From Candidatus Poribacteria bacterium (lineage in GTDB: Bacteria > Abyssobacteria > SURF-5): a DNA stretch of 6,574 nt. The stretch is from positions 1-6,574 of the forward strand of contig JACRIR010000216.1 in NCBI GenBank assembly GCA_016215705.1, written 5' to 3'. Below, in pieces: positions 2,396 to 6,574 of this stretch. Under the pieces are notes generated by a model. The model had not been told where the DNA came from, did no database searches, and worked only from the letters and a program-made list of their open reading frames with translations. Position 1 is the stretch's first letter. Every line of letters begins with the position of its first letter. The translations under genes were made by a program, and so were the position numbers.

Positions 2396-3331
2396 ATGAC
2401 AACACCGCATCCTGACTACATTGAATACGTCGAGGCGCTCAAAGATGAGATCAATGCGCTCCGCAAGGAGCGCAACGCCGTCATCCTCGCACACAACTAT
2501 CAGCGCGACGAAGTCCAGGAGATCGCTGATTTCTGCGGCGACTCGCTCGCCCTGAGCAGGCAGGCATCAAAGACCACAGCCGATGTGATTGTGTTTTGCG
2601 GCGTTCACTTCATGGCTGAGAGCGCGGCCATTCTATCACCTCAAAAGACCGTGCTGTTACCCGTCCTCGAAGCCGGCTGCCCAATGGCCGATATGATTGA
2701 CGCGCCACGCCTCCGCGAAGTGAAGTCGCGGCATCCCGATGCGGTTGTCGTCACATACGTTAATTCGAGCGCGGCGGTCAAGGCTGAAAGTGACATCTGC
2801 TGCACGTCGGCGAATGCCGTCAAGGTTGTGAACTCCGTTGATGCGAAGAAGGTTATCTTCACGCCGGACAAGAATCTGGCGCACTATGTATCGCGCTTTT
2901 CCGACAAAGAGATAGTTCCGTATGAGGGATTTTGCCCGACCCATCACCTCATTTTCCCCGATGCTGTCCGGCGAGCGAAGGCCGAGCATCCAAACGCCTT
3001 GTTCATTGCGCATCCGGAGTGCCTGCCGGAAGTGGTTGATCTGGCCGACCACGTGTGCAGCACTTCGGGTATGTATGAGTTCGTGCGGAAATCGGCTGCC
3101 AATGAATTCATAATCGGAACCGAGATGGGCATCCTATACCGCCTGCGCAAGGAGAACCCGCAAAAAGTGTTTTACCTGCCGGCGAGACATATTCTTTGCC
3201 CGAATATGAAAATGACTACACTTGATTGGCTGGCGCAATCACTTCGCTACATGCGGCATAAGGTGGAAGTGCCCGAAGACATTCGGCTCAAGGCGAAGCA
3301 GGCGCTCGACAGAATGCTGGAGGTAATCTGA
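2396..3331 (+). CDS. nadA: Quinolinate synthase A (4Fe-4S)
   Basis: Condenses iminoaspartate with dihydroxyacetone phosphate to quinolinate, the de novo precursor of the NAD pyridine ring, using an oxygen-sensitive [4Fe-4S] cluster. The 311-residue length fits the compact NadA group. The three cluster cysteines are visible with family spacing: Cys95 (EAGCPMAD), Cys180 (GFCPTHH) and Cys268 (HILCPNMKM). Substrate-site motifs are AHNYQ (32-36), [14 protein letters not shown] (120-133), HPEC (206-209), the STSGM loop (222-226) and GTEMG (241-245). The start is inferred from family alignment, since no good Shine-Dalgarno precedes it. An ATG at 2385 opens only a four-codon frame (MLEP) that overlaps the nadA start as ATGA. 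The partner genes nadB and nadC are not in the window. The end of the gene is duplicated 170 bases downstream. Confidence 0.96.
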
Positions 3332-3338
3332 TGCCTTC
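3302..3338 (+). repeat. Direct repeat copy 1: end of nadA and pseudo-start
   Basis: This stretch matches 3472-3508 at 29 of 37 positions, and at 21 of 22 in the core 3312-3333. It encodes the NadA tail ALDRMLEVI and stop. It also contains a GGAGG (3319-3323) and an ATG overlapping the stop (TGATG), followed by codons resembling the start of gltX. It therefore looks like a duplicated nadA/gltX stop-start junction in which the gltX side has been displaced. Confidence 0.8.
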
Positions 3339-3367
3339 GAATCATATCGTCATTCGCGCAAAGACCG

Positions 3368-3414
3368 GCAATTATTCGGGGACACCATGCCGCATGGTGT
3401 CCCCGAATAATTGC
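3368..3414. repeat. Perfect 23-bp inverted repeat (REP or MITE-like palindrome)
   Basis: Bases 3368-3390 are the exact reverse complement of 3392-3414, with a single base (3391) at the centre. The transcript would form a very strong hairpin. The arms carry GGGGACACCAT next to an AT-rich AATTATT end, a composition I associate from memory with dispersed palindromes tied to IS200-like REP transposases. No transposase lies in this window. No T-run follows, so it is not a standard terminator, although such a stem could stall polymerase or protect the nadA message. Confidence 0.85.
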
Positions 3415-3426
3415 GCGTTTCCTAAT

Positions 3427-3466
3427 GGATTCTTAGCTGTCATTCCAAGCGAAGCGAGGAATCCCT
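3427..3466. repeat. GTCATTCC-GAAGCGAGGAATC type intergenic repeat
   Basis: The segment contains GGATTC (3427-3432) pairing with GAATCC (3459-3464), and within it ATTCC (3442-3446) pairing with GGAAT (3458-3462), around a GCGAAGCGAG core. Sequences of the form GTCATTCC...GCGAAGCGAGGAATC recur between genes in many bacterial genomes, and their frequent translation as VIPSEARNP-like peptides is a known annotation artefact. Family membership is from memory. It sits directly after the large palindrome inside the same insertion. Confidence 0.55.
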
Positions 3467-3471
3467 TCCCT

Positions 3472-3508
3472 GCTCTCACAGGAATGCTGGAGGTAAGCTG
3501 ATGTCCTC
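3472..3508 (+). repeat. Direct repeat copy 2: nadA-like tail and true gltX start
   Basis: Second copy of the repeat at 3302-3338, offset by 170 bases. Read in frame it gives ALTGMLEVS and a stop, clearly related to the NadA tail ALDRMLEVI, and the stop overlaps the gltX ATG as TGATG. It carries the functional gltX Shine-Dalgarno GGAGG (3489-3493, seven bases before the ATG). This suggests that gltX originally overlapped nadA by one base and was separated by the intervening DNA. Confidence 0.8.
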
Positions 3509-4985
3509 CAAAGTGAGAGTCCGTTTCGCTCCCAGTCCGACCGGCTCCCTCCATATCGGAGGCGCGCGAACAGCCTTGTTTAACTGGTTGTTCGCTCGCC
3601 ATAACCATGGGACTTTCATCCTCAGAATCGAAGACACCGACCAGCAGCGCTCCACGCCGGAATCACTTGCCGCAATCCTTGACGGCCTCAAATGGCTCGG
3701 GATCGATTGGGACGAAGGTCCGGAGGTCGGCGGTGAATATGGGCCTTACAACCAGATGGCAAGAATCGAGATTTACCGGAGTGAAGCAAAGAGATTGTTG
3801 ACGACCGGCGCGGTTTATAAATGCTTCTGCACACCGGATGAGTTAGTCGCGATGCGCGAGGAAGCGCGGGGGAAAAAAGCCGCGCCGCGATATGATGGCC
3901 GATGCCGCAACCTGACTCCGTCAGATGTCGCCGACCGCGAGTCCAAAAGGATTCCATACGTCCTTCGGGCCAGGGTCCCTTCCGGCACGACTAAATTCGA
4001 CGACATGGTTCGCGGGCGCATTGCCTTCGACAACTCCGAGATCGACGACTTCATAATTCTCCGGTCAGACGCCACACCGACCTACAATTTCTCGGTTTCA
4101 GTTGACGATTTCACGATGAAGATCACGCACGTCATCCGGGGCGAAGACCACATCTCGAACACGCCCAAACAAATCATCCTTCTGCGGGCGATGGGCGCGG
4201 AGCCGCCGATATACGGGCATGTCTCCCTGATAATGGGGGAGGACGGCTCGCGCCTCAGCAAACGGCATGGGGCCACCGCCGTTGCAGCGTACGACGCAAT
4301 GGGGTATCTGCCCGAGGCGATGATGAACTATCTTGCCCTTCTCGGGTGGTCGCCCAAGGACAATCGTGAAATCATGACGTGGCAAGAGATTGTGCGCGAT
4401 TTCGATATTGCCGACGTGTCTAAGACGGCGGCGATTTTCAGCCCGGACAAGCTTCAATGGATGAACGGCCAATACATTCGGGCGCTGAGCGATGAACAGC
4501 TTGCAGAGAGGGTTGCGCCTTTCCTGGTAAAGGCCGGCCTACTGAGTGAGTCGGGATGGCAATCGCATCAAGAATGGCTTGTCAAGCTTGCACGCGCAAC
4601 GAAGGAAAGGCTTCACCTTCTCACTGATATCGTAGGCTATGCCGACTACTTTTTCCGCGCCTTCGAGGGCTACGACGCCGGAGGCGTGAAGAAACAGTGG
4701 TCGAAGCCGCTGGCGAAAAAGGTTCTATCTGACCTCGCAAACATGCTTGAGAATTGCGAGTCGTTTGACGCTCAGACCATCGAATCGCACTGCCGCGGGT
4801 ACCTCGAGCGCGAAGGTCTCAAGCTCGGCGATCTCGTACATCCCGCCCGGCTTGCCCTCACCGGCAAGACTATCAGTCCCGGCTTCTTCGAGACCGTCGA
4901 ACTCTTGGGCAAACTGAAAACTCTCACCCGCCTCCGCAAAGCCATTCAATACATCGTGGATCACGAACAACGTGAATCCCGATGA
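3501..4985 (+). CDS. gltX: Glutamate--tRNA ligase (glutamyl-tRNA synthetase)
   Basis: Charges tRNA-Glu with glutamate for translation, and in organisms using the C5 route also feeds tetrapyrrole synthesis. The 494-residue length is normal for a bacterial class I GluRS. The catalytic domain shows PSPTGSLHIGGART (11-24, HIGH-type motif at 18-21), the glutamate-site segment LRIEDTD (41-47), TYNFSVSVDD (194-203), HVIRGEDHISNTP (210-222) and the KMSKS-type SRLSKRHG (250-257). The C-terminal anticodon-binding part ends with the usual ARLALTG...LLGK pattern. A zinc-type cluster is partly present: Cys108, Cys110 and Cys135 align with the E. coli ligands, but the fourth position is Asn137 instead of histidine. 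The start has GGAGG seven bases upstream and overlaps the stop of the duplicated nadA tail. Whether it also charges tRNA-Gln cannot be read from sequence alone. Confidence 0.97.
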   Translation: MSSKVRVRFAPSPTGSLHIGGARTALFNWLFARHNHGTFILRIEDTDQQRSTPESLAAILDGLKWLGIDWDEGPEVGGEYGPYNQMARIEIYRSEAKRLLTTGAVYKCFCTPDELVAMREEARGKKAAPRYDGRCRNLTPSDVADRESKRIPYVLRARVPSGTTKFDDMVRGRIAFDNSEIDDFIILRSDATPTYNFSVSVDDFTMKITHVIRGEDHISNTPKQIILLRAMGAEPPIYGHVSLIMGEDGSRLSKRHGATAVAAYDAMGYLPEAMMNYLALLGWSPKDNREIMTWQEIVRDFDIADVSKTAAIFSPDKLQWMNGQYIRALSDEQLAERVAPFLVKAGLLSESGWQSHQEWLVKLARATKERLHLLTDIVGYADYFFRAFEGYDAGGVKKQWSKPLAKKVLSDLANMLENCESFDAQTIESHCRGYLEREGLKLGDLVHPARLALTGKTISPGFFETVELLGKLKTLTRLRKAIQYIVDHEQRESR

Positions 4986-5656: not shown

Positions 5657-6574
5657 TTACCTTACTTTCAGAGACAGATTAGCGTTATACGTGGTTGCAT
5701 CATTGAGGCTGATGCGCAATTGATACGTGCCTGCGGTCAACCCTTTTGTGGACCAGTTGTAGATATACTGCTGTTCGACAGGATCATATCGGAACAGGTT
5801 GCCGGTATTGGCCTCACCGACAGGAACGGTTTCCACCTCCGTAACGGTTCCAGTTACAACATTGGTTACCTTGAAGACTGACAGAGTGGCAGTCGCAGCG
5901 CCGACAGGCGTGGTGCCCGAGCAGTATAGTTTGAACTTCACCGGGACCGCCCGTCCAATTTTGAAGACGCTCGATCCGTCGGCATTTATCGGTTGAAGTA
6001 TGCCGCTATACACGTATTTCACGTGAACCGATGCTTGACAACTGCTCGTATTTCCGCTCGAGTCGGTCGCGGTAAAAGTCACAACAGTAACGCCGGGTGT
6101 GAAGATGCCGGGCGCGTTGTTTGTGACCGGAACGGCTCCGTCCACGTTGTCGGTGGCCGTGGCTGCGTTCAGGAACGCATGGATAGCCACACTGCTTGAG
6201 GGTGTGCCGCCGCATTCCAGGTCCACCTGAATATTTGCCGGACATGTTATTGCCGGTGGGACAGTGTCGTCGCATACAGGATCGGCTCCATTACAGTCTT
6301 CGTCGATGCTGTTTCCGCAGATTTCGGTTGCGCCCGGATGCGTGCCCGCGTTGGAGTCGTCGCAGTCGGTGGAATTCGTCACATATCCAACTGGCGCGGA
6401 GCAGGCGTCAACTGTTATGGCTATGTTGCCGTAGGTGTCACCGTCAGCATCCCGATAGAATGTTTGTGTCACCCCTTCATCAGCCTGACCGTCACAATCG
6501 TTATCCATGCTGTCACAGATTTCGGCTGATGGAGCCCCAGGCGTGCAAGTATCCTGCAATGTACCGCCAACGCA
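5657..6574 (-). CDS. C-terminal part of a secreted/surface protein with metal-binding-motif, HYR and PxKF domains (5' truncated by window edge)
   Basis: The frame is open to the right edge, so 305 C-terminal residues are visible and no start or signal peptide can be seen. A TTG at 6559 is internal: the five codons before it continue the same Cys/Gly pattern. Domains, numbered from the first visible residue, follow in order. First come Asp/Cys-rich putative metal-binding-motif units (MopI type, about 1-103) with EICDSMDNDCDG, DADGDTYG and EICGNSIDEDCNG. Next is an HYR domain (about 106-186) with PPAITCPANI, ATDNVDG and TATDSSGNTSSC, an immunoglobulin-like adhesion fold. Last is a PxKF domain (about 187-305) with Pro211-Val-Lys-Phe214, ending in LSLKVR. 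These domains are typical of large exported proteins of Gram-negative and candidate-phylum bacteria. The many D-x-D loops suggest calcium binding (inference). The substrate or partner is unknown. Confidence 0.88.
   Translation of the reverse strand, partial: CVGGTLQDTCTPGAPSAEICDSMDNDCDGQADEGVTQTFYRDADGDTYGNIAITVDACSAPVGYVTNSTDCDDSNAGTHPGATEICGNSIDEDCNGADPVCDDTVPPAITCPANIQVDLECGGTPSSSVAIHAFLNAATATDNVDGAVPVTNNAPGIFTPGVTVVTFTATDSSGNTSSCQASVHVKYVYSGILQPINADGSSVFKIGRAVPVKFKLYCSGTTPVGAATATLSVFKVTNVVTGTVTEVETVPVGEANTGNLFRYDPVEQQYIYNWSTKGLTAGTYQLRISLNDATTYNANLSLKVR

Follow-up and report, generated by a model that had tools for sequence, protein, structure and literature searches.

The nadA–gltX junction is present twice around inserted DNA

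The window, the whole 6,574-nt stretch of DNA analysed here, carries nadA, encoding quinolinate synthase (positions 2396–3331, plus strand; PF02445, E = 5e-125), and, on the same strand, gltX, encoding glutamyl-tRNA synthetase (3501–4985; PF00749, E = 4e-107, and PF19269). NadA has orthologues in the two same-family relatives, G001 and G002, and the gltX start aligns with that of G002 gltX. The junction of the two genes occurs twice on the plus strand, as copy 1 at 3312–3341 and copy 2 at 3482–3511, which are identical at 26 of 30 positions. The copies enclose inserted DNA (3342–3481, plus strand) that is missing from both relatives and whose first ~8 nt may be part of copy 1. Copy 1, which matches the empty site of G002, contains the final codons of nadA, its TGA stop (3329–3331) and a remnant of the former gltX start (ATGCC, as in G002). 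Copy 2 contains a vestigial nadA tail (MLEVS followed by a stop), GGAGG as ribosome site and, at 3501, the ATG that starts gltX. An Rfam scan of the window returned one tRNA and nothing else, and at 5657–6574 on the minus strand a large secreted-type ORF with repeated DNDCDG-like motifs runs past the contig end.

The sequence-only reading had placed two junction copies 170 bases apart, in agreement with a repeat finder, which reported a single long direct repeat between 2900 and 3900 (3312–3341 against 3482–3511, 26/30). The 22-base core that it described, GAATGCTGGAGGTA[AT/AG]CTGATG, lies at 3312–3333 and 3482–3503 with one differing position, and has no further occurrence in the searched sequence of the window's genome. 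The copies had been quoted as 37 nt long; duplication is supported over ~30 nt (26/30), and the leftward extension is doubtful, because the similarity left of the core (GCGCTCGACA versus GCTCTCACAG) falls within the end of a GTCATTC-type repeat that recurs elsewhere with CCCTGCTTTCA, and we therefore trimmed the duplication to ~30 nt. The claim of related C-terminal tails (ALDRMLEVI and ALTGMLEVS) stands in part: copy 2 keeps MLEVS and its stop in frame, matching the G002 nadA tail LDRMLEVS, but the 'AL' of ALTGMLEVS is doubtful. When 48-nt contexts were aligned on the start codon, the two copies agreed at 32 of 48 positions, a value not reached in 40,000 random pairings of same-genome contexts that each contain a Shine–Dalgarno sequence (SD) and a start (mean 14.2, s.d. 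3.1), confirming that the junction duplication at nadA/gltX is real.

The uninterrupted junction is the older state

The comparison covers two same-family genomes, both of other genera (NadA identity 75–83%). In G002, the closest relative compared (NadA 83% identical), the predicted empty site reads ...AGAATGCTGGAGGTGAGTTGATGCCGCC..., and in the sequence ...CTCGATAGAATGCTGGAGGTGAGTTGATGCCGCCAAAAGTACGC... the nadA stop and the gltX start share one base as TGATG, with neither spacer nor palindrome, bearing out the one-base ancestral overlap that had been proposed from the window. In G001 (NadA 75% identical), nadA and gltX overlap by 4 bp (ATGA), likewise with no spacer. The nadA/gltX site is thus uninterrupted in both relatives, nadA adjoins gltX in each, and neither shares the window's spacer. 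Since both relatives overlap directly, the overlap is the older state and the ~140-bp insert is derived. The other 57 relatives belong to other families, and among the 30 best NadA loci none outside this family had gltX as a neighbour. Separately, a reading in which copy 1 runs on into a decayed gltX 5′ end (ATTCGCGC...ACCGGC; p = 0.003 against G002) was rejected: this sequence also stands left of other hairpins and is part of the element.

The insert combines two dispersed repeats

The insert contains a perfect 47-bp palindrome at 3368–3414, of the form GCAATTATTCGGGGACACCATGC-C-reverse complement (23 + 1 + 23 nt), which the repeat finder returned as a perfect inverted repeat (3368–3390/3392–3414) with a 1-nt loop, as the sequence-only reading had described it. 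This palindrome is one of ~400 GGGGACAC hairpins in the window's genome. A search for GGGGACAC-N11-GTGTCCCC with up to three mismatches gave 472 matches there versus 58 for the reversed control; in G001 and G002 the family is at control level (15 versus 17 in each), with no expansion. A second dispersed repeat, also anticipated from the window, occupies 3434–3478 on the plus strand (GTCATTCCAAGCGAAGCGAGGAATC...CCCTGCTCTCA) and is also found joined to a hairpin at C265 (L030/L233) and partly so at C246 (L012); C227 and C32 carry it by itself. In addition, the left arm at 3349–3372 (GTCATTCGCGCAAAGACCGGCAA) recurs left of other hairpins (seven flanks score at least 8 versus 1.3 expected), and at C265 the stretch right of the palindrome, through to CCCTGCTCTCA, is again attached to a hairpin. 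Because both flanks of the palindrome recur elsewhere, we read the insert as built from two dispersed repeats, and the duplication as ~30 nt. The earlier proposal that insertion of a palindromic element duplicated the junction thus holds insofar as the insert is derived and the junction doubled, but the inserted unit is not the palindrome alone.

To describe the family, we used a collection of 140 hairpins in 1.12 Mb, or 150 with ten from other loci. Among the 150, 101 lie between co-directional genes, 20 between convergent and 16 between divergent genes, 8 at contig edges and 5 inside called genes (17 of 211 under looser criteria). The family is thereby REP-like in the broad sense, being of high copy number, palindromic and mainly extragenic. 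The arms stay complementary while their sequence varies (CACC...GGTG and CACG...CGTG; TTATTC...GAATAA and TAATTC...GAATTA), which suggests selection for pairing or hairpin-templated correction. Hairpins at loci L001–L030 and L144–L160 of the window's genome have perfectly complementary arms, with variants including AAAATC. On contig C49 (~16100–16250, minus strand; L168/L159), a second intact hairpin is read in frame within the 3′ end of ilvD and contributes residues such as LDYSGTPCGKVSPNNRS to its product, resembling the palindromes that are inserted into genes in Rickettsia.

Relationship to known repeats and transposases

The terminal inverted repeats around TIRYT transposase genes have been described as carrying the motif GGGGWSAS (PMC3733652). 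The GGGGACAC of the window palindrome, and the family as a whole, fit this motif, and the hairpins share with TIRtrons a high copy number, intergenic placement and self-complementarity; they differ in that the copies in the window's genome are mainly fused single palindromes. That genome contains three Y1 transposase (Y1_Tnp) genes, none of which is flanked by an exact GGGGACACCATGC repeat. One of them (L166; G000:C28, ~1370–2111) has TTATTCCGGGGACATAATACC repeats on either side in inverted orientation, close in sequence to half of the hairpin; these flanks (GGGGACATAATACC) are similar, not identical, to the hairpin repeat. This transposase is likely the nearest relative of whatever moves the hairpins. 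A second near-copy lies immediately upstream of it on the same contig. Another Y1 transposase (L162; G000:C225, 56–1030) carries a DnaA C-terminal domain (helix-turn-helix); its GGTCAGGTCTTGAAATTTGAATTAAG-type ends belong to a different repeat group. DnaA-type C-terminal domains are treated under TnpA-REP subclass 2.1, which is equated with most TIRYTs (PMC6006769). Taken together, the hairpin family likely belongs to the TIRYT/TIRtron-type repeats, a membership that is not proven because the exact cognate transposase was not found.

REP/REPIN/BIME elements, which are associated with RAYT transposases, are similar to the hairpins in being short, dispersed, largely extragenic palindromes with hundreds of copies. 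However, the family consensus ..CG.TAATTCGGGGACACCATGC..GAATTA.CG contains neither a GTAG nor a CGTC tag, and a long flanking duplication is undescribed for such elements in the open papers searched. The direct repeats that bound the inserted DNA recall the target-site duplications of IS elements and MITEs, but here they are ~30 nt long, were seen only at overlapping gene junctions and are absent from the family at large.

Flanking repeats are not general to the hairpins

The flanks of 145 other hairpins carry no constant target-site duplication: the best 30-nt match averaged 16.37 versus 16.33 for mismatched flanks (p = 0.57), and local alignment placed 12 sites above the 95% level versus 7.4 expected, a mild and non-significant excess. 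These two tests reject general flanking repeats at all hairpins, and the doubled junction is not a target-site duplication typical of the element, in keeping with the earlier remark that one so long is unusual for a transposon. Four hairpins (L211:3162, L225:3426, L238:13903 and L185:5595) have direct repeats in their flanks that are weak (~70%) or, in L185, short (15/15), each within the range of mismatched flanks and jointly slightly above expectation.

Doubled junctions recur at other overlapping gene pairs

A fixed-register comparison of upstream stop against downstream start in 72 tight pairs gave two cases, the window and rsmH/ftsL (C52), and a third, the ilvD/ilvB-like pair (C49), was spotted through its flanking repeat. 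The copies agree at 26/48 positions for rsmH/ftsL (p = 0.00025) and at 28/48 for ilvD/ilvB (p = 0.00005). Both pairs are split by a hairpin in the window's genome and overlap in both relatives, as TTGA and TGATG for rsmH/ftsL and as ATGA twice for ilvD/ilvB.

A uniform scan of co-directional pairs in the canonical overlap register, covering 1.66 Mb (~30% of the genome) at a threshold of at least 24/42, found a duplicated junction in 3 of 96 hairpin-bearing pairs (0.01 expected) versus 1 of the 449 pairs that lack a hairpin (Fisher p = 0.019), rates that are rough, as the window and ilvD/ilvB had been found through their duplication before the scan. Extending the search by 0.54 Mb yielded no further hairpin case. 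The hairpin-free case is an scpB/rluB-like pair (L319; G000:C241, ~12330–12415, minus strand), names that we assign presumptively from reading the protein sequences, in which an ATGA junction is doubled over 34 nt (~80% identical) around a 32-nt filler with no hairpin. Duplication thus needs no hairpin, and this junction is a possible intermediate. The scpB/rluB-like genes overlap directly in both relatives, as do those of the other three split pairs (nadA/gltX, rsmH/ftsL and ilvD/ilvB).

The second copies retain the upstream stop in frame. Two vestiges are clearly like the upstream tails, namely MLEVS-stop and KAEKICGETLG-stop (upstream gene, AAEKLGVETSE-stop), and a third, GRRRQST-stop, shows weak likeness. 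Among 23 hairpin pairs with an orthologous junction in G002, three overlap there and two of these, the window and rsmH/ftsL, have clear duplications, in contrast to none of the ~20 pairs with a spacer in G002 (Fisher p = 0.012).

Origin of the doubled junctions

We propose an explanation that, taken as a whole, we hold to be highly probable. In the ancestor, nadA and gltX overlapped as TGATG. In the lineage of the window, a mobile repeat composed of the GGGGACAC palindrome and the GTCATTC repeat came to separate two ~30-bp copies of the junction, each with the end of nadA, the ribosome site and the start of gltX. Of these, the left one now serves as the nadA end alone and the right one as the gltX start alone, such that the operon survives with its genes apart. 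A plain insertion at an overlapping junction would cost the upstream gene its stop context or the downstream gene its ribosome site or start, and retaining both signals would need duplication of at least the segment from the SD to the stop/start (~20 nt); the observed duplications, of 30–36 nt, lie just above that minimum. We infer a selection filter, by which inserts persist between formerly overlapping genes only with a doubled junction; the duplication would be seen only at overlapping junctions because it makes the split tolerable there. Three observations count against the explanation: a pair upstream of nadE (L206) overlaps in G002 but has no clear doubled junction here, the scpB/rluB-like junction was doubled with no hairpin present, and the additional 0.54 Mb brought no new hairpin case.

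How the duplication arose relative to the insertion is a narrower question. We give roughly even chances to a joint origin, through either a template switch at the hairpin or the filling-in of a staggered break that captured repeat DNA; such a single event fits the way in which the copies abut the insert. Alternatively, a short tandem duplication of the junction may have come first, creating a dispensable spacer in which mobile hairpins landed later. This is a serious possibility, if somewhat short of an even one: the scpB/rluB-like junction is the intermediate it expects, and hairpins prefer co-directional spacers (101/150), but it requires that each of the three sites underwent two rare events independently, the insert sits almost exactly at the copy border in all three hairpin cases, and only 1 of 449 hairpin-free pairs has such a duplication. 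An element that always copies ~30 bp of target, with copies decaying unless both are needed, would account for the similar lengths (30–36 nt) abutting the insert in the three hairpin cases, and the cognate transposase of the family was not found. We regard this as improbable, given the near-identical scores of true and mismatched flanks at the 145 other hairpins, the modest local-alignment count (12 versus 7.4), and the statement that IS200/IS605 relatives make no larger duplications (PMC2817692).

Two further readings concern the duplication itself. A metagenome assembly artefact comes to mind as the window is an entire 6.6-kb contig of a 270-contig draft, but it is very improbable: four differences separate the two 30-nt copies, nadA–gltX adjacency is kept in both relatives, and the pattern is found on other contigs. 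Chance or convergence, with copy 2 a newly evolved ribosome site that happens to resemble the nadA tail, draws on the fact that a ribosome site and a start codon are required anyway; we consider it next to impossible and rejected, as the 32/48 agreement far exceeds a null (14.2 ± 3.1) whose contexts all carry both signals, the vestigial MLEVS frame is retained, and three further cases exist.

Consequences for the operon and for overlap loss

That ATGA and TGATG junctions couple translation is well established (PMC6728339), and gltX translation now presumably relies on its own ribosome site, not on nadA termination. The spacer is predicted to fold into a very strong stem (z = −5.9, 3300–3520), which we do not read as an intrinsic terminator because no T-run follows it in the window sequence. 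Within 3474–3521, the predicted fold pairs the gltX ribosome site UGGAGG with CCUCCA in codons 2–4, and CUCUCAC with GUGAGAG. In this model the gltX start may be partly masked; by eye, the pairing is not conserved in G001 and G002.

The hairpin family and the loss of gene overlaps are already known kinds of phenomena. As here, ancestrally overlapping co-directional genes separate in Salmonella and Escherichia coli, in a study that classifies the fates of overlaps and does not mention duplication in its main text (PMC3843671). No description of a recurrent stop/start junction duplication was found in the open-licence papers searched, which is weak evidence of absence.

Overlapping stop and start codons couple the translation of many genes in operons, and such sites should hardly admit insertions. 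In this one genome, at least four overlaps were opened with both signals kept, and same-family outgroups show the uninterrupted state. This makes overlap loss directly traceable, accounts for how repeats can enter tight operons, and supplies a signature, the doubled junction in ATGA/TGATG register, for which any genome can be searched. We also entertain, tentatively and as rather unlikely, a separate insertion pathway at overlapping, translationally coupled junctions, in which template switching would capture single-stranded hairpin repeats and at once copy ~30 bp of the target. If such a pathway exists, overlaps would open with stop and ribosome site both preserved, and coupled genes would have a recurrent way of becoming uncoupled.
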